A program made the position numbers and the translations under genes. Source: an uncultured Hippea sp. (GTDB lineage: Bacteria > Campylobacterota_A > Desulfurellia > JAADFJ01). From it: a stretch of 48,754 nucleotides of DNA. The notes beneath the pieces were generated by a model that saw only the letters and a program-made list of their open reading frames with translations, made no database searches and was not told the DNA's origin. The stretch is taken from contig CAJVZA010000005.1 of the NCBI GenBank assembly GCA_913009315.1, positions 1 to 48,754 on the forward strand, read 5' to 3'. This document shows, piece by piece, positions 5,852 to 23,231 of the stretch (the first letter of the stretch is position 1; each line of letters starts with the position of its first letter).

Positions 5852-5866
5852 TCACTCCCCCTTATT

Positions 5867-6721
5867 TTAATCTTTCTTGCTGTAATCGTAAAATCCTTTT
5901 CCGGTTTTTCTGCCGAGCCATCCTGCCTGTACCATTTTCTGCATAACATTGGGCGGCAGAAATTTCTTGTCTTTGGTTTCGTCATATAGTATGTTTCCTA
6001 CAAAATAAGCAATATCCACACCTGTGAAATCCATCAGCTCAAGAGGTCCCATAGGGACTCCGGCTCCAAGTTTCATTGCAGTGTCTATCTGTTCGGGTGA
6101 GGCTATTTCGGCATCATATACCCTTGCTGCTTCAAGCATGTAAGGAACCAGTATTCTATTGACTATAAATCCGGGAGTGTCTTTGCATACAACAGCGGTT
6201 TTTCCCATAATTTCTGCCATACTTTTTGCAGCCTCAACGGTTTTGCTTGCCGTCTGAAGCGCCGGAATAATCTCAACAAGCTTCATCATGGGAACAGGAT
6301 TAAAAAAGTGCATTCCAACGAAATTCGAGCTTCTTCCGCTTGCTTTTGCAAGTGCTGTCATAGAGAGACTTGATGTGTTGGATGCAAAAGGAACGGTTTC
6401 CGGAACAATAGCATTGATTTTTTTGTAAAGCTCTGCTTTTATTTTTATATCCTCAAAAATGGCTTCAAATACAAAATCTGCATTCGATGCTCTTTCGGGA
6501 TCGGTTGCAAACTCAATTCTGCCGATTATTTCATTGGCGGATTCTTTTAGTCGTCCTTTTTTCTCAAAACGCGCAAGACTTTTTTCAATAATTTTTTTGC
6601 CTCTGTCAACTGATGAACGTTCATTGTCAATTGCAACAACCTGCAGCCCATTTGTCGCAGCAGTCTGAATAATTCCACTTCCCATACTACCGGTTCCGAA
6701 CACAGCAATTTTTTTAAACAT
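5867..6721 (-). CDS. 3-hydroxyacyl-CoA dehydrogenase (3-hydroxybutyryl-CoA dehydrogenase type)
   Basis: This 284-residue protein has the N-terminal NAD-binding GTGSMGSG (residues 9-16), the central MHFFNPVPMMKLVEI active-site segment with the catalytic His, and the C-terminal MGPLELMDFTGVDI dimerisation helix. It is the size of monofunctional Hbd/PaaH, not of the FadB fusion. It oxidises (S)-3-hydroxyacyl-CoA to 3-oxoacyl-CoA with NAD+ in the cytoplasm. It follows the enoyl-CoA hydratase gene by 8 nt, and a thiolase lies upstream in the same operon, so the three give a full lower beta-oxidation segment. The chain length or aromatic preference is unknown. Confidence 0.94.
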   Translation of the reverse strand: MFKKIAVFGTGSMGSGIIQTAATNGLQVVAIDNERSSVDRGKKIIEKSLARFEKKGRLKESANEIIGRIEFATDPERASNADFVFEAIFEDIKIKAELYKKINAIVPETVPFASNTSSLSMTALAKASGRSSNFVGMHFFNPVPMMKLVEIIPALQTASKTVEAAKSMAEIMGKTAVVCKDTPGFIVNRILVPYMLEAARVYDAEIASPEQIDTAMKLGAGVPMGPLELMDFTGVDIAYFVGNILYDETKDKKFLPPNVMQKMVQAGWLGRKTGKGFYDYSKKD

Positions 6722-6729
6722 TTCTCCTC

Positions 6730-7509
6730 CTATCTTCCTTTAAAATTAGGTTTTCTTTTTTCTATGAAGCTTGAAAGTCCTTCTTTTGCATCTTCAGTCG
6801 AAAATGCTCCCAAAAACGCCTTCAATTCCACATCAAGCCCCTTTTCAATCGGCCTGTCAACTCCCTGCAATATTGCAGCTTTTGCAAACTCTTTTGCTCT
6901 TATAGCACCTTTTGCAATTTTTGATGCAAAATTATATACGAAATCATCGAAATTCTCATCTTCCGATATTTCATCTAATATTTCCATGTTAAGAGCCTCT
7001 TTCGCAGTTATGCTTCGACCTGCAGCTATCATCTTAAATGCGTTATGTGCGCCTATTAAGCGGGAAAGACGCTGAGTTCCTCCTGCTCCGGGTATAATAC
7101 CCAATGTTGTTTCAGGAAGGCCTAAGACATATTTTCCTTCTGCAGCTATTCTGTAATCGCATGCAAGCGCAAGCTCGAATCCTCCTCCGAGTGCAAAGCC
7201 GTTTATGGCGGCAATTGTCAATTTTCTCGATTGAGCGATTTTGTTGAAGCTGTTTTGAAAAAATCGGGTTGTCTCTTCCGATTCGGATCTGTTGAATTTC
7301 AGAATCATATCGATATCTGCTCCGGCGGCAAAGAACTTCGGTAAACTGCTTGATATAACGATAACATCACATCTGTTATCGTTGGAGAGTCCATCGAAAC
7401 GATTTAATATTTCTTCAACAAACTGTCTGTTGATTGCGTTTGCCGGAGCTCTGTCAAGAATCAGATATCCGATATTGCCATTTAATTTTACATCAGTCCA
7501 GTTATTCAT
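6730..7509 (-). CDS. Enoyl-CoA hydratase (crotonase family)
   Basis: A 259-residue crotonase-fold enzyme with the oxyanion-hole segments FFAAGADID (about residue 60) and GFALGGGFELALACD (about 105), plus ETTLGIIPGAGGTQRL, which carries the second catalytic-acid region. The family hydrates trans-2-enoyl-CoA to (S)-3-hydroxyacyl-CoA. The start overlaps the stop of the 2-hydroxyacyl-CoA dehydratase subunit by 4 nt, which ties it to the product of that enzyme: an enoyl-CoA made by dehydration would pass directly to this hydratase. A dienoyl-CoA hydratase role cannot be excluded. Confidence 0.93.
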   Translation of the reverse strand: MNNWTDVKLNGNIGYLILDRAPANAINRQFVEEILNRFDGLSNDNRCDVIVISSSLPKFFAAGADIDMILKFNRSESEETTRFFQNSFNKIAQSRKLTIAAINGFALGGGFELALACDYRIAAEGKYVLGLPETTLGIIPGAGGTQRLSRLIGAHNAFKMIAAGRSITAKEALNMEILDEISEDENFDDFVYNFASKIAKGAIRAKEFAKAAILQGVDRPIEKGLDVELKAFLGAFSTEDAKEGLSSFIEKRKPNFKGR

Positions 7510-8699
7510 CTTTCCCCCATTTCTGCTAATGTTTCTATTCTTTCTATTATGCTGTCTCTATTGTAATCCCTTGTATCGTTGTGATCTGCCTCTATTATAA
7601 CAGAAGGAATGCCTTTTTGCCTCAATTGATCGGCGAGTTGAACCTGAATCAGAGAATAGCTTTTGCAGCTTCTATCGGCGTGAAACACAACTCCGTCAAC
7701 ATCGTATCTGCCGATTATATCAAGCAGAACCGAAAATCGTTTTTTGATATGAACATTGAGAAATCCGCCTCCTGTATAGTAAGCCAAACCTTTTATCGGA
7801 TTATCAAGTGCAACTTCACCCATGAATTTATCACCCCATGCCTGAGTGTATGTATCGGTTACAAAATTTATTCCTTTTTTTGCAAGTTCATCAAAAAGTC
7901 TGAGATCATGCCATATCGGAAGATTGTCCCACAAAAAACGATGCTTTTCTTCTGCTACCGGATATTCTCCGGACTTTATCCGTTCTTTTGTTTCCCTGTA
8001 CAGCATTTTCAGATGTTCCAGATATTGTTCCGTTCCGCGCAGCGCTACCATTGGAAACATATGCGTAAACAGATCGGCTCCGGTTAAGGGCGACGGATGA
8101 TTAGTTCTGAGTTCCATAGTCTGGCGCCATAACCGTTTTCCTTCGTTTGAAATTTTTACAACCTTTTTGAGGCGATTCAGATCAAACTTTTTCCCCGTTT
8201 CAGCTTCAAGAAACCGAATCATTCGTCTGGTTTCGCTTATCTGATAGGCAAGATGACTGCCGGTTGATTCATATTCAACCATTGGAGAATCAAAAAGAAA
8301 ACAGGAAGCATGGGTTGCCTTTTCGATAAGTCTCCACCATGAAAGTACTGTGACGCATGAATTGCTCGTTTCGACAAGAACAGTCGGTTCGGGGAGCTTG
8401 CCGAGCGGTCCTTCTTTTGAAATTAAGCTTCCGTAGGTGCTCCTCAAATATGAGCATGTGTGCTTGCTTATACCGTCGGCTTCGGCGAATTTTGAATATT
8501 TAACCGCTTCTTTTCTTGCTCCGAGCATTGCGCCGTAGTTTTCCGTATAAAACGGAAAGATATCCATAGCATAAAAAATTTCGCACGGAATTCCAACATT
8601 TACCCATGCTATAGGTTTGCCTGATTCCGCGCTTTTCTTCAGGTCGCCGTAGTATCCTGAAATCAGTTTTTTAAGGTTTCCGGTGGCTTGCAATCTCAT
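7506..8699 (-). CDS. 2-hydroxyacyl-CoA dehydratase subunit (HgdB/FldB/BcrB family), first of pair
   Basis: A 397-residue D-component family protein. The family dehydrates (R)-2-hydroxyacyl-CoA by a ketyl-radical route, or in the Bcr branch reduces benzoyl-CoA. Three cysteines are where the family ligates its [4Fe-4S] cluster: C82 in KHTCSYLRSTYG, C115 in ETSNSCVTVLSWW and C345 in HADRSCKSYSLIQ. The C-terminus has the usual IPSVIIEADHND ending. It overlaps the second subunit gene by 4 nt and the hydratase gene by 4 nt. The ATP-dependent activator (HgdC/BadFG type) that such enzymes need is not in the window. Dehydratase is favoured over ring reductase because BcrA/BcrD partners are also absent. 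Confidence 0.87.
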   Translation of the reverse strand: MRLQATGNLKKLISGYYGDLKKSAESGKPIAWVNVGIPCEIFYAMDIFPFYTENYGAMLGARKEAVKYSKFAEADGISKHTCSYLRSTYGSLISKEGPLGKLPEPTVLVETSNSCVTVLSWWRLIEKATHASCFLFDSPMVEYESTGSHLAYQISETRRMIRFLEAETGKKFDLNRLKKVVKISNEGKRLWRQTMELRTNHPSPLTGADLFTHMFPMVALRGTEQYLEHLKMLYRETKERIKSGEYPVAEEKHRFLWDNLPIWHDLRLFDELAKKGINFVTDTYTQAWGDKFMGEVALDNPIKGLAYYTGGGFLNVHIKKRFSVLLDIIGRYDVDGVVFHADRSCKSYSLIQVQLADQLRQKGIPSVIIEADHNDTRDYNRDSIIERIETLAEMGER

Positions 8700-9823
8700 A
8701 ATTCTTCTCCAATCTGCTCCGCAAATGCTTCAAGGCGCGTAAGAAATTGTCCTTCGGAGCTAACCCGGTAACCTCCTTCCAACCCTATAACGGGTATGCC
8801 TTCTGCCTGCAGTCTTTTTCTGAGTATTGGAAACTCGCATTCTTCCGAATCGCAGAACGTTACGAGATAAAATATTACTCCTTTCACGCCTGCTTCTTTG
8901 CAGTCTTTAATTAGTTCGTCTATTCTGAGATCGATATTACCTTTTGTGGAACATGGAATTTTGCTTAAATATCGTTTTGAAATCGCATGGTAGGGGCCTT
9001 CTTTTGTTTTGATAACAAGTTCTTTGAATGCCCTTGACCCGAACATAAGATCATCTGTCACCATTCTCATACCTGTTTTATCTACAATTTCAAAAAATTG
9101 AGTTGATTCAAGCATAATTCCGGATATTGCTACTTTTATACTGTTTTCTATAGATCGGTCGTCTGTTAATTCCGTCTGCTGCATCAATTGTTCCAGTTTC
9201 TGCGTGTATTCGCTGCTGTCCATAATTGTTGCAAGAGAAATAATGGAAAAGAAGTCTGCCGAATTTATAACAATTTTTCCCTTTTTGATGAGATCATAAA
9301 ATTTTAGAACAGCAAGGCGTTTTTTATTCGAAATTCTTATCGCTTCGGTCAGCATTTCTTCATCAATTTTTATGTTGAAATAGCCGGAAATATGATTTAC
9401 AAGTTTTTTTAGTTCACCGGATAGAAAATTTATCGATTCTACAGTCAATATGGTGGGGTAAGGTATAAAATGATAGAAACTGTCACCTGAATTTTCCTGC
9501 CAGATATCGGCTATTGCCCTGAGTGAATCGCAATATCTAGAAAAAATTACGCCTTTTAGAAAGGAAAGCGTTCCGTTTAAAAGCTGATCGAGAAAGTTTA
9601 TCGATACCGAACAGGCGAAACTTTCTATTTTGGAGCCCCCAACCGCAATTTGCCTATCATTTGGAGATATTCTGAGCGGATGCATACCGGCGGCGTATAT
9701 TATTTCTTCAGGAACATAGGTTTCAAAATAGCCCATAACCGGTTTGTCAATCTTTTTAAGATATTCCGGCAGATTTTTTCTTATAGTCCTGAATTCATTT
9801 AGTGCTTCGGATTCTTTAATCAA
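8696..9823 (-). CDS. 2-hydroxyacyl-CoA dehydratase subunit (HgdA/FldC/BcrC family), second of pair
   Basis: This 375-residue partner of the preceding family member is more diverged but keeps the layout: YVPEEIIYAAGMHPLR near the N-terminus, then C71 (ESFACSVS), C98 (FSRYCDSLR) and C324 (LVTFCDSEECEF), which match the three cluster-ligand positions. The end IPVIGLEGGYRVSSEGQ replaces the more usual E-x-D segment. The two subunits would form the heterodimer carrying one cluster each. Its gene follows the DUF35 gene with a 4-nt overlap and runs into the other subunit with a 4-nt overlap, so stoichiometric synthesis is likely. Confidence 0.85.
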   Translation of the reverse strand: MIKESEALNEFRTIRKNLPEYLKKIDKPVMGYFETYVPEEIIYAAGMHPLRISPNDRQIAVGGSKIESFACSVSINFLDQLLNGTLSFLKGVIFSRYCDSLRAIADIWQENSGDSFYHFIPYPTILTVESINFLSGELKKLVNHISGYFNIKIDEEMLTEAIRISNKKRLAVLKFYDLIKKGKIVINSADFFSIISLATIMDSSEYTQKLEQLMQQTELTDDRSIENSIKVAISGIMLESTQFFEIVDKTGMRMVTDDLMFGSRAFKELVIKTKEGPYHAISKRYLSKIPCSTKGNIDLRIDELIKDCKEAGVKGVIFYLVTFCDSEECEFPILRKRLQAEGIPVIGLEGGYRVSSEGQFLTRLEAFAEQIGEEL

Positions 9824-10296
9824 TTGTCCAGCTCAAATGCGAAATAAACTCTGTCTATGCTGATTTTGTCTCTTCCTATTTCGGCCGGTATGGGAGGAAC
9901 ATCGAATACCTTCAGCTTTACTTTGTCGCCCCTGTGAATATCGTCTATCGATTTGATGCCTACAATTTTTGAGAGTATGTCGAAGGAATCGGAAAGCTTT
10001 ATATATGCATGTATCAGCGGTTTTTCAAAACCTACCGGAACTCCGGCTTTTAATTCCGTAAAATATTCGACGGTTCCTTTTGTCGGCAGATCTATCCATT
10101 CCAATTCTTCGGATAAACATTCAGGGCAGAGGATTCTCGGCGGATAGCTTACTTTGCCGCATTTGATGCATTTTGTTGTAGTTAAACGTCCTTCTTTTAG
10201 ATATTCAAAAAATTTCCATATCTTTGTGAGCTGTTTGCCTTCCATCGGATATGTATCAAGTATAACCGAATAGAGGTTATTGAATTGATTTTCCAT
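9820..10296 (-). CDS. Zn-ribbon/OB-fold protein (DUF35 family), thiolase partner
   Basis: A 158-residue protein with a rubredoxin-like zinc ribbon, CIKCGKVSYPPRILCPEC (residues about 41-58), followed by an OB-fold segment beginning LEWIDLPTKGTVEYF. DUF35 proteins occur beside SCP-x type thiolases and acyl-CoA enzymes and, in cases such as BbsA/BbsB and archaeal HMG-CoA formation, bind the thiolase and help pass or bind CoA thioesters. The gene starts directly after the stop of the thiolase gene, which supports a complex between the two products. No catalytic residues of its own are expected. Confidence 0.9.
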   Translation of the reverse strand: MENQFNNLYSVILDTYPMEGKQLTKIWKFFEYLKEGRLTTTKCIKCGKVSYPPRILCPECLSEELEWIDLPTKGTVEYFTELKAGVPVGFEKPLIHAYIKLSDSFDILSKIVGIKSIDDIHRGDKVKLKVFDVPPIPAEIGRDKISIDRVYFAFELDN

Positions 10297-11463
10297 CTAA
10301 TCCCTCCCGTATATAAGAATAGTATGTGCAACTATTGCACCGCTGAAATTGTGAGTAAGACCATATTTTGCACCTTCAACCTGATGATTGGCATCACCTT
10401 TCAGCTGTTTTGCAATTTCTATTGCCTGCCTTATTCCGGTTCCTCCGAACGGATGACCGCAGCTCAGCAATCCGCCGTCAGTGTTGACGGCAACTTTGCC
10501 TCCGAAATCAGATAGTCCCTTTTCGGCAAAAATGCCTCCTTCGCCTTTTTCACAGAATCCGAGATCTTCATATTCTATCACTTCCGAAATCGTAAAACAG
10601 TCATGCGTTTGAGCGACATCTACATCGTCGGCTGTTATTCCGGCTTTTGAGTATGCGCGCGAAGCCGCAGTTTTGAGTGCATTCCATGTAGTCCAGTTTC
10701 CTCTGTTGGATATGCTGTTGCTTTCTGTTGCCTGAGCGGTGCCTATAATTTTTACAAGCGGTTTGTCCGTAAAATCTTTTGCTGCTTCGCCGGATGTCAA
10801 AATTACCGCTGCGGCACCGTCGGTGATGGGACAGCAATCGTATAATTTCAATGGGGCGGCAACCGGTTTTGCAGTCATAGCATCCTGGAGAGTTATTTCT
10901 TTTCTGAATTGACCTTTTGGATTATTTAATCCGTTTCTTCTGTTTTTTACACTTATAGCTGCAAGCTGTTCCTCTGTAGTTCCATACAAAGCCGCATGGC
11001 GCTGAAACACTATTGACAGTAAAGATGGAGGCAGACCTAATCCCTGGGCACCGTCCCAATCGTGGTCTACGCTGCCTAATTGGCTGTAAAATGTTTCCCA
11101 TCTTTGCGGCGTAAACAGTTTTTCGCCTCCAATCACCATTATTGTATTTGACAAGCCGCTCTTTATCATTCCTGCGGCAAGTATTATTGCCGAGCTTCCG
11201 CTTCCGCACAAAAGTTCCACTCGTGCACATACGGAACTTGTTTTGATACCGAGATATTCGGCAACCATCGGCGCAAGATGGGTTTGTCTCGACAGACGCT
11301 CCGAACATGCTGATGCAACAAGAATACCATCGATATCAGCCGGTTTTATATGAGGATTATCCTCAAAGCATGCTTTTCCGGCTTCCTGAAAAAGCTCAAT
11401 TAGTGTGGCGTCTCTATAGCCCCACTTGGATTGTCCTCCCGCTACTACACATGCATCTTTCAT
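10297..11463 (-). CDS. Thiolase, SCP-x/acetyl-CoA acetyltransferase type
   Basis: A 388-residue thiolase-fold enzyme. The nucleophilic cysteine is C86 in VELLCGSGSSA, HDCFTISEVIEYEDLGFC contains the family His, and GGLLSCGHPFGGTG carries the second Cys and His of the active site. The form is the SCP2-thiolase type that commonly works with DUF35 partners. It should cleave 3-oxoacyl-CoA with CoA to acyl-CoA plus acetyl-CoA (or the reverse). With the hydratase and dehydrogenase downstream it completes a beta-oxidation-like spiral. In benzylsuccinate degradation a comparable thiolase plus DUF35 pair releases benzoyl-CoA, so an aromatic substrate is possible here. Confidence 0.92.
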   Translation of the reverse strand: MKDACVVAGGQSKWGYRDATLIELFQEAGKACFEDNPHIKPADIDGILVASACSERLSRQTHLAPMVAEYLGIKTSSVCARVELLCGSGSSAIILAAGMIKSGLSNTIMVIGGEKLFTPQRWETFYSQLGSVDHDWDGAQGLGLPPSLLSIVFQRHAALYGTTEEQLAAISVKNRRNGLNNPKGQFRKEITLQDAMTAKPVAAPLKLYDCCPITDGAAAVILTSGEAAKDFTDKPLVKIIGTAQATESNSISNRGNWTTWNALKTAASRAYSKAGITADDVDVAQTHDCFTISEVIEYEDLGFCEKGEGGIFAEKGLSDFGGKVAVNTDGGLLSCGHPFGGTGIRQAIEIAKQLKGDANHQVEGAKYGLTHNFSGAIVAHTILIYGRD

Positions 11464-11476
11464 CTCTTCCTCCTGA

Positions 11477-12976
11477 TCATTTTGAAAACTCCTTTTTCGC
11501 CATTTCTCTTAATTTTCTTTTTAGAATCTTTCCCGTCGCATTTTTGGGTAGAGCTTCTGCAAATTTAATTTTCTTGGGTGCTTTAAAACGTGCCATTCTG
11601 CTTTTACAAAATTCTATAAGTTCGGCTTCTTCGACTGTTTTTCCCTCTTTCAGCACAACGTACGCCAATACCGATTCCTGATAGATCTTATCCGGCATTC
11701 CAACCACGGAACATTCCTGAATGCAATCGTTTTGATAGAGCGTTTCTTCGACCTCACGAGGCGAAATATTTTCACCGCCTGAATTTATCATATCTTTTGT
11801 TCTATCTACAATGTACAGATAGCCTTCATCATCCAGTTTTCCTACATCACCTGTATGAAGCCAACCGTTTTTCAAAGTTTCTTCAGTTTCTTTTTGTTTT
11901 CCAAAATAGCCGAGCATAACATTCGGTCCCTGAATCAGAATTTCACCTTCTTCTCCGGTTTTCAGGGGATTATCGTTTTTGTCGGCAACTCTTATCTCCA
12001 CATTTTCTATGGGAGTTCCGACTGATCCTGCTTTATGTCTGAATTCATGATTATATGTTGCAAACGGTGTTGATTCTGTCAATCCGTATGCTTCGTTCAT
12101 GTCCATTCCTGTTTGTTTTTTCCATTCTTTAATCACCTCGACCGGCAGGCTTGCTGCTGCCGAAAAAGAGTATGTCAGCGATTTTAAATATTCTTTGATG
12201 CCGGGCGTATTAAGAAGCATAATATAGATTGTGGGAACAGCATAAAACCGTGTTACCTTATGTTGTTTTGTAAGCTCCAGGATATCATCCTGCTCATATT
12301 TTCTATGCAAAACCAAGGTTGCGCCGCAGTTTATGGCGCTATTGGCAATAAAATTCTGGGCAAATGAGTGAAAAAGCGGCAAAAAGCAGATTAGCCGATC
12401 GTCCGGAGAAATTTTTGTATGATGAATGGCGGCATAGCTGTTGCTTATAATATTGCCATGAGAAAGAATCACACCCTTGGGTTCTCCTGTTGTACCGGAC
12501 GTATATATAATGGAAGCAGGATTCTCAGGTGAGCGGTAAACGGTGTCAAAAAGATCGTTAGAATCGATTTTATCAATATTGTCCTCTAATTTATCCCCAA
12601 ATGAAACAATTTTCTGAAGATAAGTTTCACTTTTGGCAGGAAGTTGTTCGATGAGATCGTCTTCTACAAAAACTATTTTTGTGCGTGAATCATTGAGTAT
12701 ATATTTTACCTCTTTTTTTTGAAGCAGAAAATTTATTGATACTGCAACCCCGCCCATCTTTTGTATGCCGTAGTAGGCATATAAAAATCGTTCATTATTT
12801 GCTGAGAAGATAGCTACATTGTCGCCGGCCTTGATACCGTTTTTTATTAGATAATTTGCAATTCTGTTTGAAAAGGAATACAGCTTGGAATAGCTGAAGC
12901 TGCCGGTTTTAGTTATTATAGCGGGTTTATTCCTATTAAATCTAAAATTTCTGTCTATAAATGACGCATTATTCAT
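11477..12976 (-). CDS. Acyl-CoA synthetase (AMP-forming, long-chain/FadD-like)
   Basis: The 499-residue protein is a class I adenylate-forming ligase: IIYTSGTTGEPKGVILSHGN is the phosphate-binding motif, AYGLTESTP the adenine motif, GWLHTGDVGKLDDEGYL and VDRTKDMINSGGENISPREVE the hinge, and PKNATGKILKRKL contains the catalytic lysine of the lid. It activates a carboxylic acid to its CoA thioester. It is separate from paaK in the same operon, so the operon has two ligases with presumably different acids, for example a 2-hydroxy acid for the dehydratase versus an arylacetate. The start overlaps the reductase gene by 4 nt. The chain-length class is not safely readable. Confidence 0.92.
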   Translation of the reverse strand: MNNASFIDRNFRFNRNKPAIITKTGSFSYSKLYSFSNRIANYLIKNGIKAGDNVAIFSANNERFLYAYYGIQKMGGVAVSINFLLQKKEVKYILNDSRTKIVFVEDDLIEQLPAKSETYLQKIVSFGDKLEDNIDKIDSNDLFDTVYRSPENPASIIYTSGTTGEPKGVILSHGNIISNSYAAIHHTKISPDDRLICFLPLFHSFAQNFIANSAINCGATLVLHRKYEQDDILELTKQHKVTRFYAVPTIYIMLLNTPGIKEYLKSLTYSFSAAASLPVEVIKEWKKQTGMDMNEAYGLTESTPFATYNHEFRHKAGSVGTPIENVEIRVADKNDNPLKTGEEGEILIQGPNVMLGYFGKQKETEETLKNGWLHTGDVGKLDDEGYLYIVDRTKDMINSGGENISPREVEETLYQNDCIQECSVVGMPDKIYQESVLAYVVLKEGKTVEEAELIEFCKSRMARFKAPKKIKFAEALPKNATGKILKRKLREMAKKEFSK

Positions 12977-13938
12977 CTGTTACGAGTCCCCCTTGCCTGC
13001 TTATTCCACAACATTTTTTGTTCAAGTGCTTTAATAATCAGAGTAATTGCATGATTATATGGCGTTTCTACCTTTAGCTGTTTTCCAATTTTTACGATAT
13101 ACCCGTTTAATGTATCGATTTCAGTTCTGCGTTCGGCTTCTATATCCTGCAGCATTGAAATTTTATTATCTTTTACTCCGGCCAGGGCTTTTAATGAAAA
13201 CTCTCCTGGGGATTTCAATTCCTCGAACTCAAGTCCCTTTTTTCTTGCTACCATTGCGGTTTCCTCTGCAAGAAGCTTTATAAGTTCTTTTGCGGGTTCG
13301 CATGCCAGGATTTTTTCACCGGTAAAACCGGTAAAACCGGCAACTGCGTTGCATGCCACATTTGCAATCAGCTTTCGCCAGATAGGAACTTCGATATTGC
13401 CTTCTATCAGCTTAACGGTAAAACCTGCCTGATTGAGAAAATCGATCATTTCTTTGAATGTAGCATCCGGTTTTCTTCCATCGAGGGTTCCAAGCCAAAC
13501 GCCTCCGATACCGCCTGTATAGCGTATATGACAGTCGTCCAGCGGCATGGCGCTGTGCGCAGTAACTCCGCCTACGACTTTTTCTTTTCCTACAATCTTT
13601 GCGATAGTCTCCAAATTGCCAAGGCCGTTTTGGACCGAAAGAACATAGCTGTTGCCGTTGATAATCTTTGCCGCGGTTTTTGCCGCTGCTTCCGTTGCAT
13701 AGCCTTTTACCGATATCTGGACAATATCGAACTTTTCAAGTTTTTCGGGTTCGGTAGTAGCCTTGACCCATTGATGTTTATACGAACCGTCCGGCATGTG
13801 CAGAGTTATGCCGTAATTATTGATTTTTGCAACCTTACTTTTATCGATATCAATGAGCGTTACATCACAGTCTGCTTCTTGTAAAAGGACACCGAATGTA
13901 GCTCCTAATGCACCTGATCCAACTATTGCTACTCTCAT
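12973..13938 (-). CDS. 2-dehydropantoate 2-reductase family (PanE/ApbA) oxidoreductase
   Basis: This 321-residue protein has the N-terminal NAD(P)-binding MRVAIVGSGALGATFG, the SVQNGLGN loop and the helix RKLIANVACNAVAGFTG, which includes the catalytic Lys and Asn of the PanE fold. The length is normal. Classical PanE makes pantoate for CoA. Several PanE-family members are instead (R)-2-hydroxyacid dehydrogenases reducing 2-oxo acids. Being the first gene of a catabolic operon, 4 nt overlapped with an acyl-CoA ligase and upstream of a 2-hydroxyacyl-CoA dehydratase, the second role is attractive here, but it is inference. The ATG has a GGGGGG ribosome site. Confidence 0.85.
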   Translation of the reverse strand: MRVAIVGSGALGATFGVLLQEADCDVTLIDIDKSKVAKINNYGITLHMPDGSYKHQWVKATTEPEKLEKFDIVQISVKGYATEAAAKTAAKIINGNSYVLSVQNGLGNLETIAKIVGKEKVVGGVTAHSAMPLDDCHIRYTGGIGGVWLGTLDGRKPDATFKEMIDFLNQAGFTVKLIEGNIEVPIWRKLIANVACNAVAGFTGFTGEKILACEPAKELIKLLAEETAMVARKKGLEFEELKSPGEFSLKALAGVKDNKISMLQDIEAERRTEIDTLNGYIVKIGKQLKVETPYNHAITLIIKALEQKMLWNKQARGTRNR

Positions 13939-14495: not shown

Positions 14496-14726
14496 ATGAA
14501 TGAACTTGATATAATACCGATTGAACCAAGGTTTAAACATTCGACAATTATGAAAACGTTTGATGAACTAAAAGAAGGTGATGCATTTATTCTGAAAAAT
14601 GATCATGACCCTGTTCCCCTTAAATACCAATTTGAGGCAGAGAAAAAGGGAGAATACAGCTGGGAATATATAGAAGAAGGGCCTGAAATATGGAAGGTCA
14701 AAATCGGAAGGACGGCATCGAAATGA
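14496..14726 (+). CDS. DUF2249 domain protein
   Basis: A 76-residue protein, LDIIPIEPRFKHSTIMKTFDEL then GDAFILKNDHDPVPLKYQFE, matches the small DUF2249 family, which is SirA/TusA-like in fold and is regularly found with Ric/YtfE, hemerythrin and NO-handling genes. The DHDP motif is a family hallmark. A ribosome site TGGAGG precedes the ATG. It overlaps ric by 4 nt (ATGA), so the two are made together. The biochemical function of DUF2249 is not established; nitrosative or oxidative stress is the likely setting. Confidence 0.88.
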   Translation: MNELDIIPIEPRFKHSTIMKTFDELKEGDAFILKNDHDPVPLKYQFEAEKKGEYSWEYIEEGPEIWKVKIGRTASK

Positions 14727-15436
14727 GCGGCGTGATAACGCCTGAGCAGTCGCTCGGAGAGATAGTTGGAAAATATCCTTTATTATCGGGATTTTTTGAA
14801 AAAAACGGAATAGACTACTGCTGCGGAGGAAAAGAGACATTAAGAGAAGCCGCCGCAGAACATAATATCGACGAAAACAATCTCATAAAGCAGCTCGAAA
14901 AGGAATTGGAAAGACTTGATGAGTTTCAGGCTGATGAGATCACTTGGGAAACGCGTCCGGCAAGCGAACTCGTTGATTATATAGTGGCAAGACATCATGG
15001 CTACATAAAACAGAATCTTCCCGATTCGGAAGCTCATCTGAGAAAAATACTGCAGGTGCACAGCGAGGTTAATCCTAATGAAATGATGGGCGATGAGAGG
15101 GCTATAGTGAGGCTTCCGAAACTGCTTACCGCTTTTCTTGAGATGAAAGAATCTATATCGAAGCATCTCAAAGAGGAAGAAGATGAGGTTTTTCCTGCTA
15201 TAAAGAATGATGCAGTTGACGAGTCTTTGAAGCGGAAAATTCTTAAGCTGCAGGAAGAGCATGAAGAACTTGGAGAAACTTTGGAGAAGATTAAACAATT
15301 GGCAACCGATTTTGTGCTGCCGGAATGGGCATGCCCGACATTTGCCGCTACATACAGACTGCTGAGCGGATTTCAAGCTGATATCCATAAACATATTCAT
15401 TTGGAAAATAACATCCTTTTTCCAAAATTGATTTAA
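14723..15436 (+). CDS. ric: Iron-sulfur cluster repair di-iron protein (Ric/YtfE/ScdA)
   Basis: The ATG at 14723 overlaps the preceding stop as ATGA and follows GGAAGGA, so it is preferred over an earlier in-frame start at 14690. The 237-residue protein has the ScdA_N (DUF542) domain with NGIDYCCGGKETL near the N-terminus, then a hemerythrin-like four-helix domain whose iron ligands are visible as ARHHGYIKQ, HSEVNP, HLKEEEDEVFP, EEHEELG and HKHIHLENNILFP. The family repairs Fe-S clusters damaged by NO or peroxide. In an anaerobe full of Fe-S enzymes like those of the operon next door this is a plausible protective function. A terminator follows at 15487. Confidence 0.93.
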   Translation: MSGVITPEQSLGEIVGKYPLLSGFFEKNGIDYCCGGKETLREAAAEHNIDENNLIKQLEKELERLDEFQADEITWETRPASELVDYIVARHHGYIKQNLPDSEAHLRKILQVHSEVNPNEMMGDERAIVRLPKLLTAFLEMKESISKHLKEEEDEVFPAIKNDAVDESLKRKILKLQEEHEELGETLEKIKQLATDFVLPEWACPTFAATYRLLSGFQADIHKHIHLENNILFPKLI

Positions 15437-15437
15437 C

Positions 15438-15450
15438 GGGGTCGTGTCTT
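15438..15450 (+). repeat. Dispersed GGGGTCGTGTCTT repeat, copy 1
   Basis: GGGGTCGTGTCTT begins 2 nt after the ric stop and continues as ACATTTGACATAA. The same head followed by TGCATTTGACATAG occurs at 23218, and the first 14 bases recur inverted at 37950-37963. A relative, GGGTCAGGACTTTACTTTTT in inverted orientation, is at 40235-40254. Such GGGTC...TTTGACA strings resemble ends linked to REP-type tyrosine transposases, but that link is from general knowledge and not shown here. Confidence 0.7.
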
Positions 15451-15486: not shown

Positions 15487-15524
15487 AACCGGTGGACTTA
15501 ACTGTCTGCCGGTTTTCGTTTTTT
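15487..15524 (+). terminator. Rho-independent terminator after ric
   Basis: AACCGGTGGAC (15487-15497) pairs with GTCTGCCGGTT (15504-15514) including two G-U pairs, around a 6-nt loop, and is followed by TTCGTTTTTTC. Confidence 0.75.
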
Positions 15525-16181: not shown

Positions 16182-18197
16182 ATGAAAAATAAAGTTTTGC
16201 TTTTTGTCGGGGTTGCACTGTTTTTATTTTTTATGAGTAAAAGCGGTTTTGCTGCTATACTTTTTGGAAAGATAACCGATCAGTCCAATCATCCGGTGGC
16301 GAACGCAAAGGTTGTTCTGGTGAATGCCGCTGATGCAGGGAGCATAAATTCACTTTCTCCCGTAGAAGATCTTGCAAATAGAGCGGTCATAAAAGGTTAT
16401 CTGTGGACTCTTAGCAATGCCGAAGGAAACTACAAATTTGATAAGGTTCCTGCTGTGCGTGTTTTTCCCTTTGTACTGCCGGCGAAGAATGACACGATTC
16501 ATCTTCCCGGCGGAAACAAGTCTCGAGTCAGCATAATAATTAAAGGTTCTGAAAGACTCAATATCGAGATTACAACCTTTCCTTCTTCAAAAGCGCATTA
16601 TGTAGGTTCCTCTAAATGTCTTTCATGCCACAGACGCGTTAGCGCCAAATATACTCTTCTTTTTCTCGGATTAAGAAAGCCGGGACAATTGAGCGGACTG
16701 CAGAAAACCGGGTTGTCCGGATCTTATCACGATGCAGAGATCACAAACAGAAAGATGCTCAACAAATTTAAAAATCCTGCCGAATGGGTTAAGCTTTCGG
16801 GCTATGGCGCATGGCTCGGTCATGATAAAAGCGGCTATTATTTTCAGCTTGCCGAATCAAAAGCAGCAGTGAGAACGGGAAAATACAAAATAGATTTCAC
16901 CTATGGCGGAGATACAAAGAACTGGAAGGCGGTTTTTATGACTACAACAGGAAAAGACGGCAGACCCGAACCGCTTCACGGTAAAAACAGTGACGGCAGC
17001 TATGCCTATTTTCAAATTGCTCCTTTTGCCTATTTTGTTGCAAAAGATAAGATTGTTCCATATTCGGAAAGCGTTAAAAACTGGTTTTACGGTGGATTTA
17101 AGGGCAATCGTTATGAATCTTTTGATCTTAAGTGCGCGGGATGCCATGGTGCTACCGGCATCGAAAAAGATAACGAGGGCAATCTGATTGTGAAATTTGT
17201 TCCCGATCAATCGGGCTACACATTGGATGACGGAACAGCGAATCGATATGATATCAATGTAGGATGTGAAAAATGTCATGGCCCCGGATCAGAACATATA
17301 AAACATCACGCCCGTGGAATAATAAAACCAAGTGATCTTCCGGCAGGCAGGTTCAGACTTGTTTGCGGCAGATGTCATCAGAGGGGAACCGGCAAGGGTA
17401 TAATCGACGGAACTCACACAACCGGTTCGATTGCTTCAAGCGGAAATCTATTAAAAGGCGGTTCAATTAAATTTGCACCTTCGGGCATTTCTCCTGCAGA
17501 GTTTTACGGCACAAAAGACGGAACCGGAATACTTCCGTTTGAAGGTATGGAGAAAACGGGACATGGGTATTTTACTCCTATTAATATGAACAGTGATCCT
17601 CATAGCTGGCAGGACAGAAAATTTGGCACCAAATTCAATCATTCAAAGGGAAATTATCAGCAGTATCTTGATTTTACAAGATCAGGAATGGCAAAAAACG
17701 ACAGAATGCTTGTGGTTTGCGCAGACTGTCATAATGATCATAAAGCAACAAACGACCATCAGCTGCGCTTTAATGAAAAAAATAACAGACTCTGTCTGAC
17801 TTGTCACAACGGAGATATTTTGCCTGACACAAAAACCGTGTTTGATTCGCTTACCCTTAATGAAATAAAACGCTTTAGCAAATCCGACATAAAAAAGATA
17901 GCAATGGTGGTAAAAAAGCATATGGCCAGGAGAGCATCGCCGGTTATGGGAATGATGTATGATCCTCTCGTAACGAAGATGGGGCGCTGCACAAGCTGTC
18001 ATATGCCCAAAACGGCAAAATCAGCCGAGTTTAAAGTTCAGAAAAACGGATTTATAGTGGGAGATATCCACTCTCATACCTTCGATGTTATGGGCTTTAT
18101 GCCGATAATGAAGATGAAGGCAAAATATGGTAAAATCGGAGTAACGCCAAACGGTTATACAAATAGTTGCGGGGTATGTCATCATGGAACTAAATAA
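16182..18197 (+). CDS. Octahaem c-type cytochrome with N-terminal carboxypeptidase-regulatory-like domain
   Basis: The ATG at 16182 gives a clean signal peptide (MKNKVLLFVGVALFLFF, cleavage near GFAA) and has GGGGGAG 6 nt before it. The mature protein begins with a beta-sandwich-like segment, FGKITDQSNHPVANAKVVLV (about residues 25-140), then eight CXXCH haem sites between residues about 146 and 667: CLSCH, CAGCH, CEKCH, CGRCH, CADCH, CLTCH, CTSCH and CGVCH. It is exported and should carry electrons in the periplasm or at the cell surface. It is a paralogue of the product at 20748, sharing CEKCHGPGS, NHSKG..QQY, CHMPKTAKSA and GDIHSHTFDVM. Its end overlaps the porin gene by 14 nt. No known named cytochrome was recognised. 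Confidence 0.9.
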   Translation: MKNKVLLFVGVALFLFFMSKSGFAAILFGKITDQSNHPVANAKVVLVNAADAGSINSLSPVEDLANRAVIKGYLWTLSNAEGNYKFDKVPAVRVFPFVLPAKNDTIHLPGGNKSRVSIIIKGSERLNIEITTFPSSKAHYVGSSKCLSCHRRVSAKYTLLFLGLRKPGQLSGLQKTGLSGSYHDAEITNRKMLNKFKNPAEWVKLSGYGAWLGHDKSGYYFQLAESKAAVRTGKYKIDFTYGGDTKNWKAVFMTTTGKDGRPEPLHGKNSDGSYAYFQIAPFAYFVAKDKIVPYSESVKNWFYGGFKGNRYESFDLKCAGCHGATGIEKDNEGNLIVKFVPDQSGYTLDDGTANRYDINVGCEKCHGPGSEHIKHHARGIIKPSDLPAGRFRLVCGRCHQRGTGKGIIDGTHTTGSIASSGNLLKGGSIKFAPSGISPAEFYGTKDGTGILPFEGMEKTGHGYFTPINMNSDPHSWQDRKFGTKFNHSKGNYQQYLDFTRSGMAKNDRMLVVCADCHNDHKATNDHQLRFNEKNNRLCLTCHNGDILPDTKTVFDSLTLNEIKRFSKSDIKKIAMVVKKHMARRASPVMGMMYDPLVTKMGRCTSCHMPKTAKSAEFKVQKNGFIVGDIHSHTFDVMGFMPIMKMKAKYGKIGVTPNGYTNSCGVCHHGTK

Positions 18198-19404
18198 AAA
18201 ACTGCTTTTAGTGGTATTTGTCGTATCTATAATCATAGCCGGAAGCGCATCCGTTTCTTTTGCTATGGGTAATGAGTACCCGACTTTTCTTAATAACGAA
18301 AAAAATACGCTTGTCTATGGTTCGCTTGAGAGTCTCTTTGATCTATCGGGCGGAGCAAATAATCCAAGTGATTTTTATCAATATTTCGAACTTGGAAGCG
18401 ATCATTTCCTTGTAGACGGAAACAGCTTTTACTACTATGGATCGCTGAATATTTCCCACAATCAGCCTGATACAAACAGAAACTGGAGGCTTTACTCGAT
18501 TCTGGCGTATGATAGATACAGGAAAGATGCGGTCGACGCCACGGTTGGACGTTTCGATAAATTTATAGGAGCGCATTCTCTTCATCTTACCGGTGCGGAT
18601 TTGTCTTATGGGTTTAATAATTTTGTGATCGGAACATTCGGCGGCAGGGACGATAAACAGAACAGATACTCGGTTTATGCCGGATATACAAACACCGTGT
18701 TTAAGGCATTTTTGTACGGTATTAATAACCAGCATGCGACGAATGAAGCAGACTATCAGGTTACAATGATTCTGCCGAAATTTTACGGCTATTTTTCGGG
18801 TGCAGTTGCAAAGTCAAAAGGGCTGTTTTTTGCTGAGAACTATCTGAGAGCAAATCTCGACCGCTATTTCAACCCATACATCGGATATGATTATCAGCAG
18901 GCAGATGTACTGTTTGCCGATTCGGATAATCCGGTGTTTCAGCATCTTGCAGAAAAGGGCGGCGAATTCAAAACAACAACCGCCGGTATCGATTTCAACT
19001 GGATTGATCTGTCATGGAAGCATATGTGGCATAAATATCCAAAAAAACAGTATAATCTTTATAACATATCGGGTTATTTTCCATTTTATTCCGTTCCTCT
19101 CACTCTAAGAGTATATATTGCAAAACTTGATGATCCTGAAAGAACCGACGGTTATCATGCTGCGGGTTTCGGAGCAATTTATAGATTAGGAAAAGGCGCA
19201 ATCCACTCCGGTTTCGACTGGTATCATCTTGCCAGAAAGATATACGGAAAAAACAGGGCAACCGATCTTTCCGGCGGAATAAGCTACGACATGACGAAAG
19301 ATTTATCAGGCGATGTAACAGTTGAGTATGACAAAAACCCGTTTTTCAACCGCTTGACACAGCTTTTTCTTTCACTGAAATATAGATTTGAGGTACGAAG
19401 ATGA
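18184..19404 (+). CDS. Outer-membrane beta-barrel porin of the cytochrome cluster
   Basis: A 406-residue protein with a signal peptide (KKLLLVVFVVSIIIAGSASVSFA). The rest consists of alternating aromatic-rich strands with polar turns (FYYYGSLNISHNQPDTNRNW, YSILAYDRYRKD, LFLSLKYRFE), as in outer-membrane barrels. It overlaps the octahaem gene before it and the pentahaem gene after it, which points to a porin-cytochrome conduit in which the barrel holds cytochromes across the outer membrane. It has no sequence signature I can tie to MtrB, PioB or the Geobacter porins, so it may be a distinct type. It does not end in an aromatic residue, which is atypical for a porin C-terminus. Confidence 0.8.
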   Translation: MELNKKLLLVVFVVSIIIAGSASVSFAMGNEYPTFLNNEKNTLVYGSLESLFDLSGGANNPSDFYQYFELGSDHFLVDGNSFYYYGSLNISHNQPDTNRNWRLYSILAYDRYRKDAVDATVGRFDKFIGAHSLHLTGADLSYGFNNFVIGTFGGRDDKQNRYSVYAGYTNTVFKAFLYGINNQHATNEADYQVTMILPKFYGYFSGAVAKSKGLFFAENYLRANLDRYFNPYIGYDYQQADVLFADSDNPVFQHLAEKGGEFKTTTAGIDFNWIDLSWKHMWHKYPKKQYNLYNISGYFPFYSVPLTLRVYIAKLDDPERTDGYHAAGFGAIYRLGKGAIHSGFDWYHLARKIYGKNRATDLSGGISYDMTKDLSGDVTVEYDKNPFFNRLTQLFLSLKYRFEVRR

Positions 19405-19964
19405 ACAATTGGTTATTTGAAAAGAAAAGAGCGACGTTGAATGTAAACCGTTCTATTGAATCTCGTTCTGAAACCGTTTCGGGATTTCGAATGCTAAAGC
19501 AAACCATAGGAATCGGATATATTCTGCCGCTGTTGATATTGCTGTTGTTGGCGCCTGTTTCTGTGAATTCTCAGGCCGAATCGTTAAAACATCCGGAAAA
19601 TCTGTTTAATAACAGGCGGGCGATGTGCCTTCAATGCCACGATAATTCAGAAACATTTTATAACAGGGCAAGAAATTTTCAGCATTCGGAAGAGTTTGTC
19701 AAAAATCATAATCGTTTTGCGGCAAATCGGCAGACTTGTGCATTGTGCCATAAACCAAGTTTCTGCGTAACATGTCATAACGTAAAAAATAATCCGCTTC
19801 CCTCAATCAGACTGAAAGGGCAGCCGGAACGATTCTCCATACATCCTTCGGGGTGGCTTTCTATCCATCAGATTGAAGGAAGAAGCAATCCGGGAGAATG
19901 CTATAAATGCCACAGCAGTGATTTTGCGGGGAAATGCTCGGTTTGTCACAGGAATAAGCGATGA
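19401..19964 (+). CDS. Pentahaem c-type cytochrome, membrane-anchored or secreted
   Basis: The 187-residue protein has a 30-residue charged N-terminus, one hydrophobic segment (IGYILPLLILLLLAPVSV, about 38-55) and five haem sites: CLQCH, CALCH, CVTCH, CYKCH and CSVCH. The ATG overlaps the porin stop by 4 nt, so it is kept although the hydrophobic segment starts rather late for a signal peptide; it may act as an uncleaved anchor. CALCHKPSFCVTCH gives two adjacent sites, and histidines HSEEFVKNHNRF may be distal haem ligands. It probably relays electrons between the inner membrane or periplasm and the outer-membrane complex. Confidence 0.88.
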   Translation: MNNWLFEKKRATLNVNRSIESRSETVSGFRMLKQTIGIGYILPLLILLLLAPVSVNSQAESLKHPENLFNNRRAMCLQCHDNSETFYNRARNFQHSEEFVKNHNRFAANRQTCALCHKPSFCVTCHNVKNNPLPSIRLKGQPERFSIHPSGWLSIHQIEGRSNPGECYKCHSSDFAGKCSVCHRNKR

Positions 19965-20593
19965 GAATACAAAAAATAATAATTATATTCTTTGCGGTCT
20001 TTATGACGTCATTGCTTTGGTCGTGCGGCGGAGCCGATATTAACAATAAAGCGCCTCTGTCGGGTTCAACCCTGACTCATCCTGCCGATTGGGCTTCCGT
20101 AGCGGCTTATCAGGCTAAATCTATCAATTTTCACGGTACATTTGTTGACAAAAATGGTGACGGATCATGTGCTCAATGCCATGGCAGCGATTATAAAGGC
20201 GGGATAACCGGCATAAGCTGTTATCAATGTCACAATGGCGGAACAAGCGGAAAGCACACGCCGGAATGGATTAATCCGAAGTTTGATATCCCCCCGGTAT
20301 CAGACCGGTTTCATGGCATATTCGTTAATGAGAACAGCACAAATTCGTGCAGCCAATGTCATGGTTCCGATCTCAGCGGCGGTATCGCTCAAGTAAGCTG
20401 CATATCATGTCATAACGGACCCACAGGATTATGGGGACATCCTGAGGGTTGGACAACAGGCAAAAATGACCCGCTGCATTTTCATGGGTATTATGCTAAA
20501 AAATACTCATTGGCATGTACGGCATGTCATGGCGCTGACTTAAAAGGAGCGCACGGGCCTTCCTGCTATTCGTGCCATGGGAAGCTTTGGTGA
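19961..20593 (+). CDS. Hexahaem lipoprotein cytochrome built of three di-haem repeats
   Basis: The 210-residue protein has a lipoprotein signal ending LLWSC (Cys22). It has three repeats of about 57-60 residues, each starting HP..W then FHG and carrying two CXXCH motifs: 70/87, 130/147 and 186/202 (first Cys). The repeats share CHGSDxxGGI, SCxxCHNG. Internal triplication of a di-haem unit is therefore plain. The ATG overlaps the pentahaem stop by 4 nt. As a lipoprotein next to a porin it may sit at either face of the outer membrane. No family name was recognised; similar CxxCHG-type repeats occur in other metal-reducer cytochromes. Confidence 0.88.
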   Translation: MRIQKIIIIFFAVFMTSLLWSCGGADINNKAPLSGSTLTHPADWASVAAYQAKSINFHGTFVDKNGDGSCAQCHGSDYKGGITGISCYQCHNGGTSGKHTPEWINPKFDIPPVSDRFHGIFVNENSTNSCSQCHGSDLSGGIAQVSCISCHNGPTGLWGHPEGWTTGKNDPLHFHGYYAKKYSLACTACHGADLKGAHGPSCYSCHGKLW

Positions 20594-20670
20594 CAGAGCC
20601 GGCTGGAAATGCTATTCATAATGTAATTTTATATGCGTCATAAACGATCAATATAGATAAAAAGCAGTTT

Positions 20671-20751
20671 GTGAAAGGAGGTGATAAAGGCATTATAGAG
20701 AGGATTTGGGATTTGTATTACAAATCAGAAAACTTGAAGGAGGTTTTATGA
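20671..20751 (+). CDS. Possible 26-residue leader peptide before the second octahaem cytochrome
   Basis: From GTG at 20671 a frame of 26 codons (MKGGDKGIIERIWDLYYKSE, then NLKEVL) ends at TGA overlapping the ATG of the next gene by 4 nt. It contains AAAGGAGGTGAT (20674-20685), a 12-base perfect complement to the usual 16S rRNA 3' end. No ATG, GTG or TTG follows that site at normal distance, though an in-frame ATT is 10 nt on. It may be a translated, coupling leader or simply 5' UTR. No strong ribosome site precedes the GTG itself. Confidence 0.3.
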   Translation: MKGGDKGIIERIWDLYYKSENLKEVL

Positions 20752-23210
20752 AAAGTTGGAAAACGGCTGCAATTGCAGTCTCTGCGGCATTTTTGCTTGC
20801 AGGATGCGGCGGCGGAGGCGGAACCGCCTCATCAACGCCGGCGCCGGCACCAGGCGGAGCTCCCGCGGGAGCGGCAGTTTATGGAATTGTAACAAATAGT
20901 CATCATTCGGAAGGTATTATTGGAGATCCTGTTGCCGGTGCAAAGGTTTTTCTTGTCAAGGCATCGGATGTGGAAGACAGCAACTCTTTGCAGCCGGTTG
21001 AAGATCTCGCAAATAACGGGAATTATGCATCAACACTAACAACTTCAGACGGCAGTTTCTCTTTTAAAGCATCCGCTACTTCTGCAGATGACTATTACGT
21101 TTTTGTCGAGCCGCCAAAATATGATAAAACATTGGCTGACCCAACGAAAAATAGCGATTATTGGCCGGGCGGCTGTGCATCAAGGCAGGCTATTACCTAT
21201 GATGGAAAAACAGCTGTAAAAGTTGGTGATGCCGTTGAAGACTACTGTGCCGATCAGGGTGGTGTCGATGAAATAACATTTAAAAACGATGCTCCTACTT
21301 ATGACGGCGGCAACGACGCTTATTATGTCGGCTCGCAAACATGTCTTATTTGTCATCATAAGGATGACCTGAAGCATACTCTGCATTTTGCAGGTCTGAG
21401 GGTTCCGGGCAAACCGAATAGTCTTCAGAATCTTGATCCAAAATTTAACATTACAAAAATTGCGGATGGCGGAACAACAGGCGGACTCGCTGCATTTGAT
21501 AGCGGCACATGTATTTCATATCCGAATACGCATTTGTCCGGTGTTACAAGTTCGTATGCATGGTTGACCGAGAATAACAGCAGCCAATATTTTGTTCAGA
21601 TGGCAACCGGCTGTACCAATACCAGCACTCCCAGTGGGAATTTATCAGCAAAATACAAGGTTGCATTTACCTACGGCGGCGAAGGACTTTATAAGCAGCG
21701 CTATATGGTTATGGTTGGACCGGACGGCGGTCCGGCAGATGTACAAGTTGCTTTTGGAGGAACGGGATACTACTATCCTATGGGTTTCCAATGGAATGAA
21801 TCCAATGCAAGTACCGATTTTCCTGCCGCATGGGGCGAAAACGGAGAGTTCTCAGGCAAATGGATAGCGCCTGTATCAAGCGGAGCAGCTGTCTTTGCAC
21901 CTAATGGAACCAGTATTCCCGGATACGCACCTGATGAATCTTTCGGCGCAGATTGCGGCGGATGTCATGGCGGTACAGGCATAAAAATAAGCGGTACAGA
22001 CTCAAAAGGTAACCCTATTTTAATTGCTTCATATATAGATCAGGTAGCTCCTGATGTAAATGCCGGCAATATCGGCTGCGAAAAATGCCACGGACCGGGA
22101 TCAAATCATGTATATAATCACCCGAATTCCAGTCAACTGCCTAACGGTTACAATATAACTTATCCTATGGATCTTTCGCAGGGACGTTTGACTATGGTCT
22201 GCGGAACATGCCATGTGAGAGGACAGGGCGGTGGTATTCTTGATGGCAGCGGCGATCATGCGGGATTTGCTTCGGTCGGAAATCTAACTACAGGTGATAT
22301 AACAGTCTTCAAACCCGGAATGAGTCCGGCTCAATTTTACGGCCAAAATACATCAGGACTTGCACCTGACTTCGGATCAACTTCAACCAGTGCATACTTT
22401 GATCCGATAAGCTACGACACTGCAACCGGTGCAAAACCACACACATGGAACGACCTTATTTACGAGCAAAATAATCCATTTGAAACACTTCTTGCCGATG
22501 GTACTACAGCAACTCAGGTAACCGGATATATGAACCATTCTAAAGGTCATCATCAGCAGTATTTTGATCTCGTAAGAGCAAAAATGTGGAAAAATGACCA
22601 TGAGCTTGTGACCTGTATCAGCTGTCATGATGCACATGGCGGAGCATCCGATGCAGATAACAAATATTATGAGCATCAGTTGGCTATGAATGCCGATAAT
22701 AACGCTCTCTGCTTTTCATGTCACAACGGTGAAGATATGGAAAGTAATAATATAAATGATGCAACCGGCGATTTCCAGGGCATAAGCGGAGATATGGCTG
22801 CCGATCTTGCGGCAGGTACGGCTACAACTGATGAAAAAACCATTATAGGCAATCAGGTAATGGAACATGTCGGCAAATGGGCAAATTCAACAATGGGCGG
22901 TTTGCCGTATGATCCTGACGGAAGCACTAAGATGGGGCGCTGCATAACTTGCCATATGCCGAAAACGGCAAAATCAGCGAGATGGGCTAATTCTCTTAAA
23001 ACTGGCAGCGTGTTTGATCCATCTACCGGTAAATTTAAATATTATCAGGAAGGAGACATTCATTCTCATACATTTGACGTTATGACTACAGATGCTATAA
23101 CAGCTATGATGAATGCTGCAAGTATCAATAACGATACATCGAAAGTTACTCCTGCAGCTGTCACAAATAAGTGCGCATATTGTCATACTTCAGGTAGTTT
23201 TGTACCATAG
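20748..23210 (+). CDS. Octahaem c-type cytochrome, lipoprotein, paralogue of 16182-18197
   Basis: The ATG at 20748 follows a perfect AAGGAGG and gives a lipoprotein signal (AFLLAGC, Cys about 24) with a Gly- and Ala/Pro-rich linker. A carboxypeptidase-regulatory-like domain follows (GIVTNSH... VAGAKVFLVKAS). Eight CXXCH sites run from residue about 199 to 809: CLICH, CGGCH, CEKCH, CGTCH, CISCH, CFSCH, CITCH and CAYCH. At 820 residues it is about 150 longer than its paralogue, mainly between the domains. Attachment by lipid and position last in the cluster suggest a surface-exposed terminal reductase or electron exit. A terminator follows at 23268. Confidence 0.9.
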   Translation: MKSWKTAAIAVSAAFLLAGCGGGGGTASSTPAPAPGGAPAGAAVYGIVTNSHHSEGIIGDPVAGAKVFLVKASDVEDSNSLQPVEDLANNGNYASTLTTSDGSFSFKASATSADDYYVFVEPPKYDKTLADPTKNSDYWPGGCASRQAITYDGKTAVKVGDAVEDYCADQGGVDEITFKNDAPTYDGGNDAYYVGSQTCLICHHKDDLKHTLHFAGLRVPGKPNSLQNLDPKFNITKIADGGTTGGLAAFDSGTCISYPNTHLSGVTSSYAWLTENNSSQYFVQMATGCTNTSTPSGNLSAKYKVAFTYGGEGLYKQRYMVMVGPDGGPADVQVAFGGTGYYYPMGFQWNESNASTDFPAAWGENGEFSGKWIAPVSSGAAVFAPNGTSIPGYAPDESFGADCGGCHGGTGIKISGTDSKGNPILIASYIDQVAPDVNAGNIGCEKCHGPGSNHVYNHPNSSQLPNGYNITYPMDLSQGRLTMVCGTCHVRGQGGGILDGSGDHAGFASVGNLTTGDITVFKPGMSPAQFYGQNTSGLAPDFGSTSTSAYFDPISYDTATGAKPHTWNDLIYEQNNPFETLLADGTTATQVTGYMNHSKGHHQQYFDLVRAKMWKNDHELVTCISCHDAHGGASDADNKYYEHQLAMNADNNALCFSCHNGEDMESNNINDATGDFQGISGDMAADLAAGTATTDEKTIIGNQVMEHVGKWANSTMGGLPYDPDGSTKMGRCITCHMPKTAKSARWANSLKTGSVFDPSTGKFKYYQEGDIHSHTFDVMTTDAITAMMNAASINNDTSKVTPAAVTNKCAYCHTSGSFVP

Positions 23211-23217
23211 AGTTAAC

Positions 23218-23231
23218 GGGGTCGTGTCTTT
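23218..23231 (+). repeat. Dispersed GGGGTCGTGTCTTT repeat, copy 2
   Basis: GGGGTCGTGTCTTT starts 8 nt after the cytochrome stop and runs into GCATTTGACATAG. As at 15438 it is followed by a terminator and then a REP-like stretch, so the whole downstream block of about 200 bp is shared by the two loci. Confidence 0.7.

Follow-up and report, generated by a model that had tools for sequence, protein, structure and literature searches.

Putative porin-cytochrome conduit of the Pcc/Ext superfamily with paired octahaem cytochromes in an uncultured Hippea species

We analysed a cluster of five genes, P1 to P5, in 48,754 nucleotides of DNA from an uncultured Hippea sp. (the whole stretch is called the window here). 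The cluster very probably encodes an outer-membrane porin-cytochrome conduit that belongs to the Pcc/Ext superfamily but has diverged far, with octahaem cytochromes that would replace ExtA and the usual surface cytochrome. Our verdict from the sequence comparisons is that this putative conduit is a lineage-restricted member of the superfamily. A conduit crossing the outer membrane had been proposed in an earlier note on this DNA, and the proposal agrees with our results: the barrel, the pentahaem cytochrome and a lipoprotein are homologous to components that adjoin each other in known conduits. That the cluster represents a separate conduit type, as was also suggested, is not supported, since we found clear homology to a described conduit. 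A probable conduit, too diverged for ordinary annotation, is now placed in a Campylobacterota-labelled genus, and its distinctive feature is the pair of octahaem paralogues P1 and P5.

Layout, haem motifs and conservation of the cluster

All five genes lie on the plus strand. P1 (16182-18197) is an octahaem c-type cytochrome of 671 aa with an ordinary signal peptide, followed by P2 (18184-19404), a haem-free protein of 406 aa without cysteine that profile homology assigns to the outer-membrane barrels of the ExtB/OmbB superfamily. P3 (19401-19964) is a pentahaem cytochrome of ExtC/OmaB type and the proposed wire inside the barrel, P4 (19961-20593) an ExtD-like hexahaem lipoprotein with CHGxDxxGG repeats, and P5 (20748-23210) an octahaem lipoprotein paralogous to P1 and the proposed surface cytochrome. 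Together they hold 27 CXXCH motifs (8, 0, 5, 6 and 8) and no additional CX3CH or CX4CH motifs; shuffled versions of each protein contained 0.00-0.05 haem motifs on average, with a maximum of 2. The first four genes overlap, by 14 bp between P1 and P2 and by 4 bp each between P2 and P3 and between P3 and P4. The five consecutive genes, their individual haem counts, the total of 27 haems and the overlaps described in the earlier note were all recovered. A gap of 154 bp separates P5 from P4, and P5 is preceded by a strong Shine-Dalgarno sequence of its own (GAAGGAGG). Reading the N-termini by eye, we found lipobox-like signals in P4 (LLWSC) and P5 (LLAGC) and ordinary signal peptides on P1, P2 and P3, where M31 (19491) may be the true start of P3. 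Unlike most of its relatives and ExtC, P3 showed no lipobox.

Terminator-like hairpins on the plus strand flank the operon, one upstream (15487-15514), after a RIC/YtfE-type gene, and one downstream of P5 (23268-23299, 13 pairs and a T-run). The upstream gene, named by eye as an iron-sulfur repair gene of this type, covers 14690-15436; a homologue lies upstream in one of the sister genomes, in the opposite orientation (G021, L012 1961-2701). Further upstream, the minus strand carries a run of genes for acyl-CoA metabolism (2182-13938, named by eye), with indolepyruvate-oxidoreductase-like proteins, CoA ligases, enoyl-CoA hydratase and dehydrogenase-like proteins, and two subunits resembling 2-hydroxyacyl-CoA dehydratase or benzoyl-CoA reductase. 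We also observed a 33-nt direct repeat (15418-15450 and 23198-23230, 82% identical, with the exact 18-nt core TTAACGGGGTCGTGTCTT), each copy of which coincides with, or directly follows, the stop codon of a gene bounding the conduit region. A mobile unit delimited by these repeats was considered and dropped, as a longer 24-nt motif built around the first copy is present just once genome-wide.

P1 was found in two other genomes of the genus with 95% (L013) and 78% (L014) identity, together with the start of P2 (96% and 68% identity), and the 14-bp overlap between them is kept in both. This recurrence of P1 and the P2 start shows the operon to be native to this lineage. The complete cluster is present in one assembly; the sister genomes show just P1 and P2, in one of them (G020) also a fragment of P5, because their contigs end. 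Among 22 other genomes of this small Campylobacterota-labelled phylum, we found neither the barrel nor the octahaem P5 nor the pentahaem.

The barrel, the small cytochromes and their relatives in known conduits

Searches with P3 gave matches in 46 of 395 Desulfobacterota genomes, with E values down to 3e-31 and 30-41% identity among the best. Against profiles, P3 scored E 4e-32 with the ExtC type and E 1.5e-14 with OmaB; judged by sequence, it is a clear relative of ExtC-type pentahaem cytochromes. All ten of its histidines were invariant in an alignment of 14 sequences, five within CXXCH motifs and five elsewhere, and since the latter are available as distal ligands, five bis-His haems are possible in P3. 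P4 matched the lipoprotein that follows the pentahaem at one Desulfobacterota locus (L143, E 1e-20) and gave further hits among lipoproteins in that downstream position. In haem composition, P3 and P4 come close to a pair from Geobacter sp. M18, where a five-haem cytochrome and a six-haem surface cytochrome were argued to be enough to cross the outer membrane (PMC4245776).

We mapped 20 loci of P3 relatives in Desulfobacterota (the ExtBCD-like loci, L128-L147). In 19 of them a frame without haem motifs precedes the pentahaem, mostly with a 4-bp overlap; it is about 420-490 codons long, or longer where the start is uncertain, and for the same reason the raw frames overlap in some loci. The downstream position in these 19 is taken by a multihaem protein that in most cases has a lipobox and CHGxDLxGG repeats. 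As references we used extABCD-like loci (L152, L153) and ombB-omaB-omcB-like loci (L151, L154-L157). One genome (G186) provides both kinds: L152 encodes an ExtA-like protein (11 CXXCH and one CX3CH), a barrel, a five-haem lipoprotein and a nine-haem lipoprotein, and L151 two tandem units of barrel, eight-haem protein and multihaem lipoprotein. In gene content and order, L152 appears to agree with published extABCD, which consists of the 12-haem, 32-kDa ExtA, the 18-strand ExtB, the five-haem lipoprotein ExtC and the lipoprotein ExtD (PMC6148476, PMC12977616), and L151 with the tandem ombB-omaB-omcB and ombC-omaC-omcC clusters of Geobacter (PMC4245776, PMC6148476).

When profiles from L151, L152 and L154-L157 were compared with those from L128-L147, ExtB matched OmbB (E 9e-20) and ExtC matched OmaB (E 3e-20), so that both Geobacter conduit classes share a core of barrel plus small cytochrome. 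This profile-level homology runs contrary to a published description of the Ext and OmcB complexes as having no homologous components (PMC6148476). The relation is partly implicit in earlier work, since a survey of Pcc clusters by BLAST with OmaB, OmbB and OmcB counted four in G. sulfurreducens (PMC4245776).

P2 reached this family solely through its neighbouring pentahaem and profile-profile comparison. With hhalign, it matched the ExtB-type profile at 83-87% probability (E 4e-6 to 9e-6 over about 335-338 columns) and a wider barrel profile at 95% probability (E 3.9e-8, 340 columns); against the OmbB profile alone the match was not significant (E 0.1). Controls scored far lower: E was 0.77 and 0.07 for reversed P2, 0.017 for the best of 10 shuffles, 0.0075 for the best of 40 shuffles against the wider profile, and 0.0087 at best for E. 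coli FadL, LamB and OmpF. The length of 406 aa fits an 18-22-strand barrel of the superfamily. A count of amphipathic strands did not separate P2 from its own shuffles and is therefore not used as support, and an AlphaFold2 model from three sequences gave a pLDDT of 29. On the strength of its homology, we assign P2 to the outer-membrane barrels of the ExtB/OmbB superfamily.

P2 is strongly diverged. A conduit that shares no ancestry with Mtr, Pio, Omb-Oma-Omc or Ext would be consistent with several negative search results. Single-sequence searches of Pfam, NCBIfam and PDB with P2 gave no convincing match, direct searches of the 395 Desulfobacterota genomes and of nine genomes carrying related octahaems were empty, and neither P1 nor P5 matched a named conduit cytochrome over its full length. 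The empty direct searches are not evidence of absence, since one of those nine genomes (L019) does carry a related barrel. Independent descent is very improbable, given that ExtB-ExtC-ExtD-type trios with matching gene order are homologous to P3, to P4 and, in profile comparisons, to P2. The earlier impression that no part resembles known conduits holds for Mtr and Pio, as the MtrB_PioB domain (PF11854) is absent from P2 and was not found in the genome; it fails for Ext and Omb-Oma, given the matches of P3 to ExtC and OmaB and of P2 to ExtB.

The octahaem pair

P1 and P5 share 34% identity over 770 columns (E 2e-100). The closer relatives of P5 are octahaems from Myxococcota-type metagenome-assembled genomes (45% identity in L015, 41% in L016), with which it groups in the tree (81/96 support), and P1 stands on its own branch. 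A recent duplication within the operon was therefore rejected; either the two diverged long ago, or P5 was gained in a separate event. Most relatives of these octahaems are lipoproteins, and P1 and its two orthologues are non-lipidated.

The N-terminus of P1 resembles a CnaB/transthyretin-like beta-sandwich (CarboxypepD_reg, E 4e-4, below the curated cut-off). The AlphaFold2 model of P1 was confident just for residues about 25-130 and 190-315, which cover the N-terminal sandwich plus another beta domain, and its best Foldseek matches were mostly CnaB or carboxypeptidase-regulatory-like folds, none at E <= 0.001. P1 showed no similarity to ExtA-like proteins. In a profile search of PDB with P1 and P5, the best results were local matches to MtrA and OcwA (6r2q chain A and 6i5b, which we take to be these two proteins). 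OcwA is a nonahaem cytochrome of a Gram-positive bacterium, which has no outer membrane.

The papers that we consulted do not tie this octahaem family to conduits. Genomic neighbourhoods point to such a tie: two loci from two Nitrospirae-labelled genomes (L179, L180) encode an octahaem, a barrel and a 13-haem protein, part of which is ExtC/OmaB-like, the barrels matching the ExtB profile with E 3e-52 and 3e-59 and the octahaem of L180 carrying a lipobox. The Desulfobacterota locus L166 encodes an OmbB-type barrel together with an 11-haem protein and a 24-haem lipoprotein, within which lies an octahaem-like region. The occurrence of the family beside related barrels elsewhere supports P1 and P5 as genuine conduit partners. 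It would mean that donor and surface cytochromes are exchanged around a conserved core, here for members of an octahaem family.

Some features of these loci stand on their own. The 24-haem lipoprotein of L166 (8626-12759, 1377 aa) appears to be assembled from an octahaem unit and, after it, more octahaem-like pieces. The Nitrospirae-labelled phylum is rich in ExtBC-type conduits, with matches in six of eight genomes (L176-L178), and two of the barrel frames there (L177, L178) are 760-769 aa long and contain four CXXCH motifs, suggesting a fusion of barrel and cytochrome.

Other functions of the octahaems would fit the operon less well. The barrel might export a secreted or filament-forming multihaem protein, with the octahaems acting outside the cell as nanowire or matrix proteins and the whole operon serving secretion and anchoring. 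As a non-lipidated protein P1 might be secreted, surface assemblies commonly contain CnaB-like domains, and cytochrome filaments are co-expressed with conduits (PMC10553843). However, P1 and P5 had no close match to solved filament cytochromes, the local MtrA and OcwA matches being their best in PDB, and the pairing of barrel and pentahaem is a conserved core whose known members act as conduits (PMC6148476), so we hold such a secretion role to be highly unlikely. Equally hard to sustain is an extracellular anion reductase, with the octahaems as reductases of a soluble substrate (nitrite, tetrathionate or sulfite type) that are supplied by way of the porin-cytochrome core. Local profile matches to NrfA and to further chains of nitrite reductases would fit but are weak, and a lysine-ligated active-site haem is absent, since all 16 cysteines of P1 lie within CXXCH motifs and P5 has no CXXCK, and the octahaem relatives are mostly surface lipoproteins, some of them beside barrels.

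Proposed electron path and comparison with known systems

For the conduit that we favour, the barrel P2 would hold P3, a bis-His pentahaem wire, in or against itself. The homology of both proteins to their families is established above; we infer the insertion of P3 into P2 because their families constantly occur as a pair. P4 and P5, both with lipoboxes, would form the surface side. P1 most likely takes over the position of ExtA and supplies the wire from the periplasmic side, although a role as a secreted surface protein is possible; we lean slightly towards the periplasm. Respiratory electrons would most likely be exported to an insoluble acceptor such as Fe(III) oxide or elemental sulfur. 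This direction and substrate are suggested by the family and the likely lineage and are fixed by nothing in the window. Two other multihaem genes of the same genome may encode partners on the periplasmic side: one for a hexahaem protein beside membrane and exported proteins (contig C1, L093 1871-4510), the other cut off by the end of its contig and encoding at least nine haems (contig C7, L094 7031-8485).

A bolder version of this model has a symmetric conduit, in which the paralogues P1, in the periplasm, and P5, on the surface, would lie opposite one another across the outer membrane, connected by an unusually short five-haem wire that runs through a small barrel, and treats the octahaems as a portable module that was fitted independently to ExtB/OmbB-type barrels in several phyla. 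We offer it tentatively and consider it less probable than its negation.

Among known systems, a conduit named OetABI (OetI, OetA, OetB) has been described in syntrophic sulfate reducers (PMC10553843). MtrCAB and PioAB follow a similar functional plan, and the P1/P5 profile matches MtrA over 53 positions (E 2e-9); in contrast to these systems, P2 is much smaller and lacks MtrB_PioB (PF11854), and the cluster has neither a decahaem MtrA nor MtrC. OcwA of Thermincola (PMC6703420) was the best single-sequence PDB match of P1, as a partial local match (E 9e-4).

With ombB-omaB-omcB (PMC4245776), the cluster shares a small barrel, a small multihaem cytochrome and a surface lipoprotein, and P3 is homologous to OmaB. 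It differs in that P3 has five haems and OmaB eight, there is no OmcB-like protein, P4 resembles ExtD-like proteins, and no TetR-type regulator was seen adjoining the cluster. The correspondence with extABCD (G. sulfurreducens GSU2645-2642, PMC6148476) goes further: barrel, pentahaem and multihaem lipoprotein come in the same order and all three are homologous, and extABCD-like and ExtBCD-like loci usually have the same 4-bp overlap as the window. However, the dodecahaem ExtA is missing and the unrelated octahaem P1 occupies its position, the pentahaem is non-lipidated, the ExtD-like P4 is reduced to six haems, and the octahaem lipoprotein P5 is additional.

The Nitrospirae-labelled loci L179 and L180 differ from the cluster in having a 13-haem wire candidate in place of the pentahaem and a single octahaem, with no hexahaem lipoprotein seen. 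As in the window, a P1/P5-type octahaem immediately precedes a related barrel there, and an ExtC/OmaB-like cytochrome comes next.
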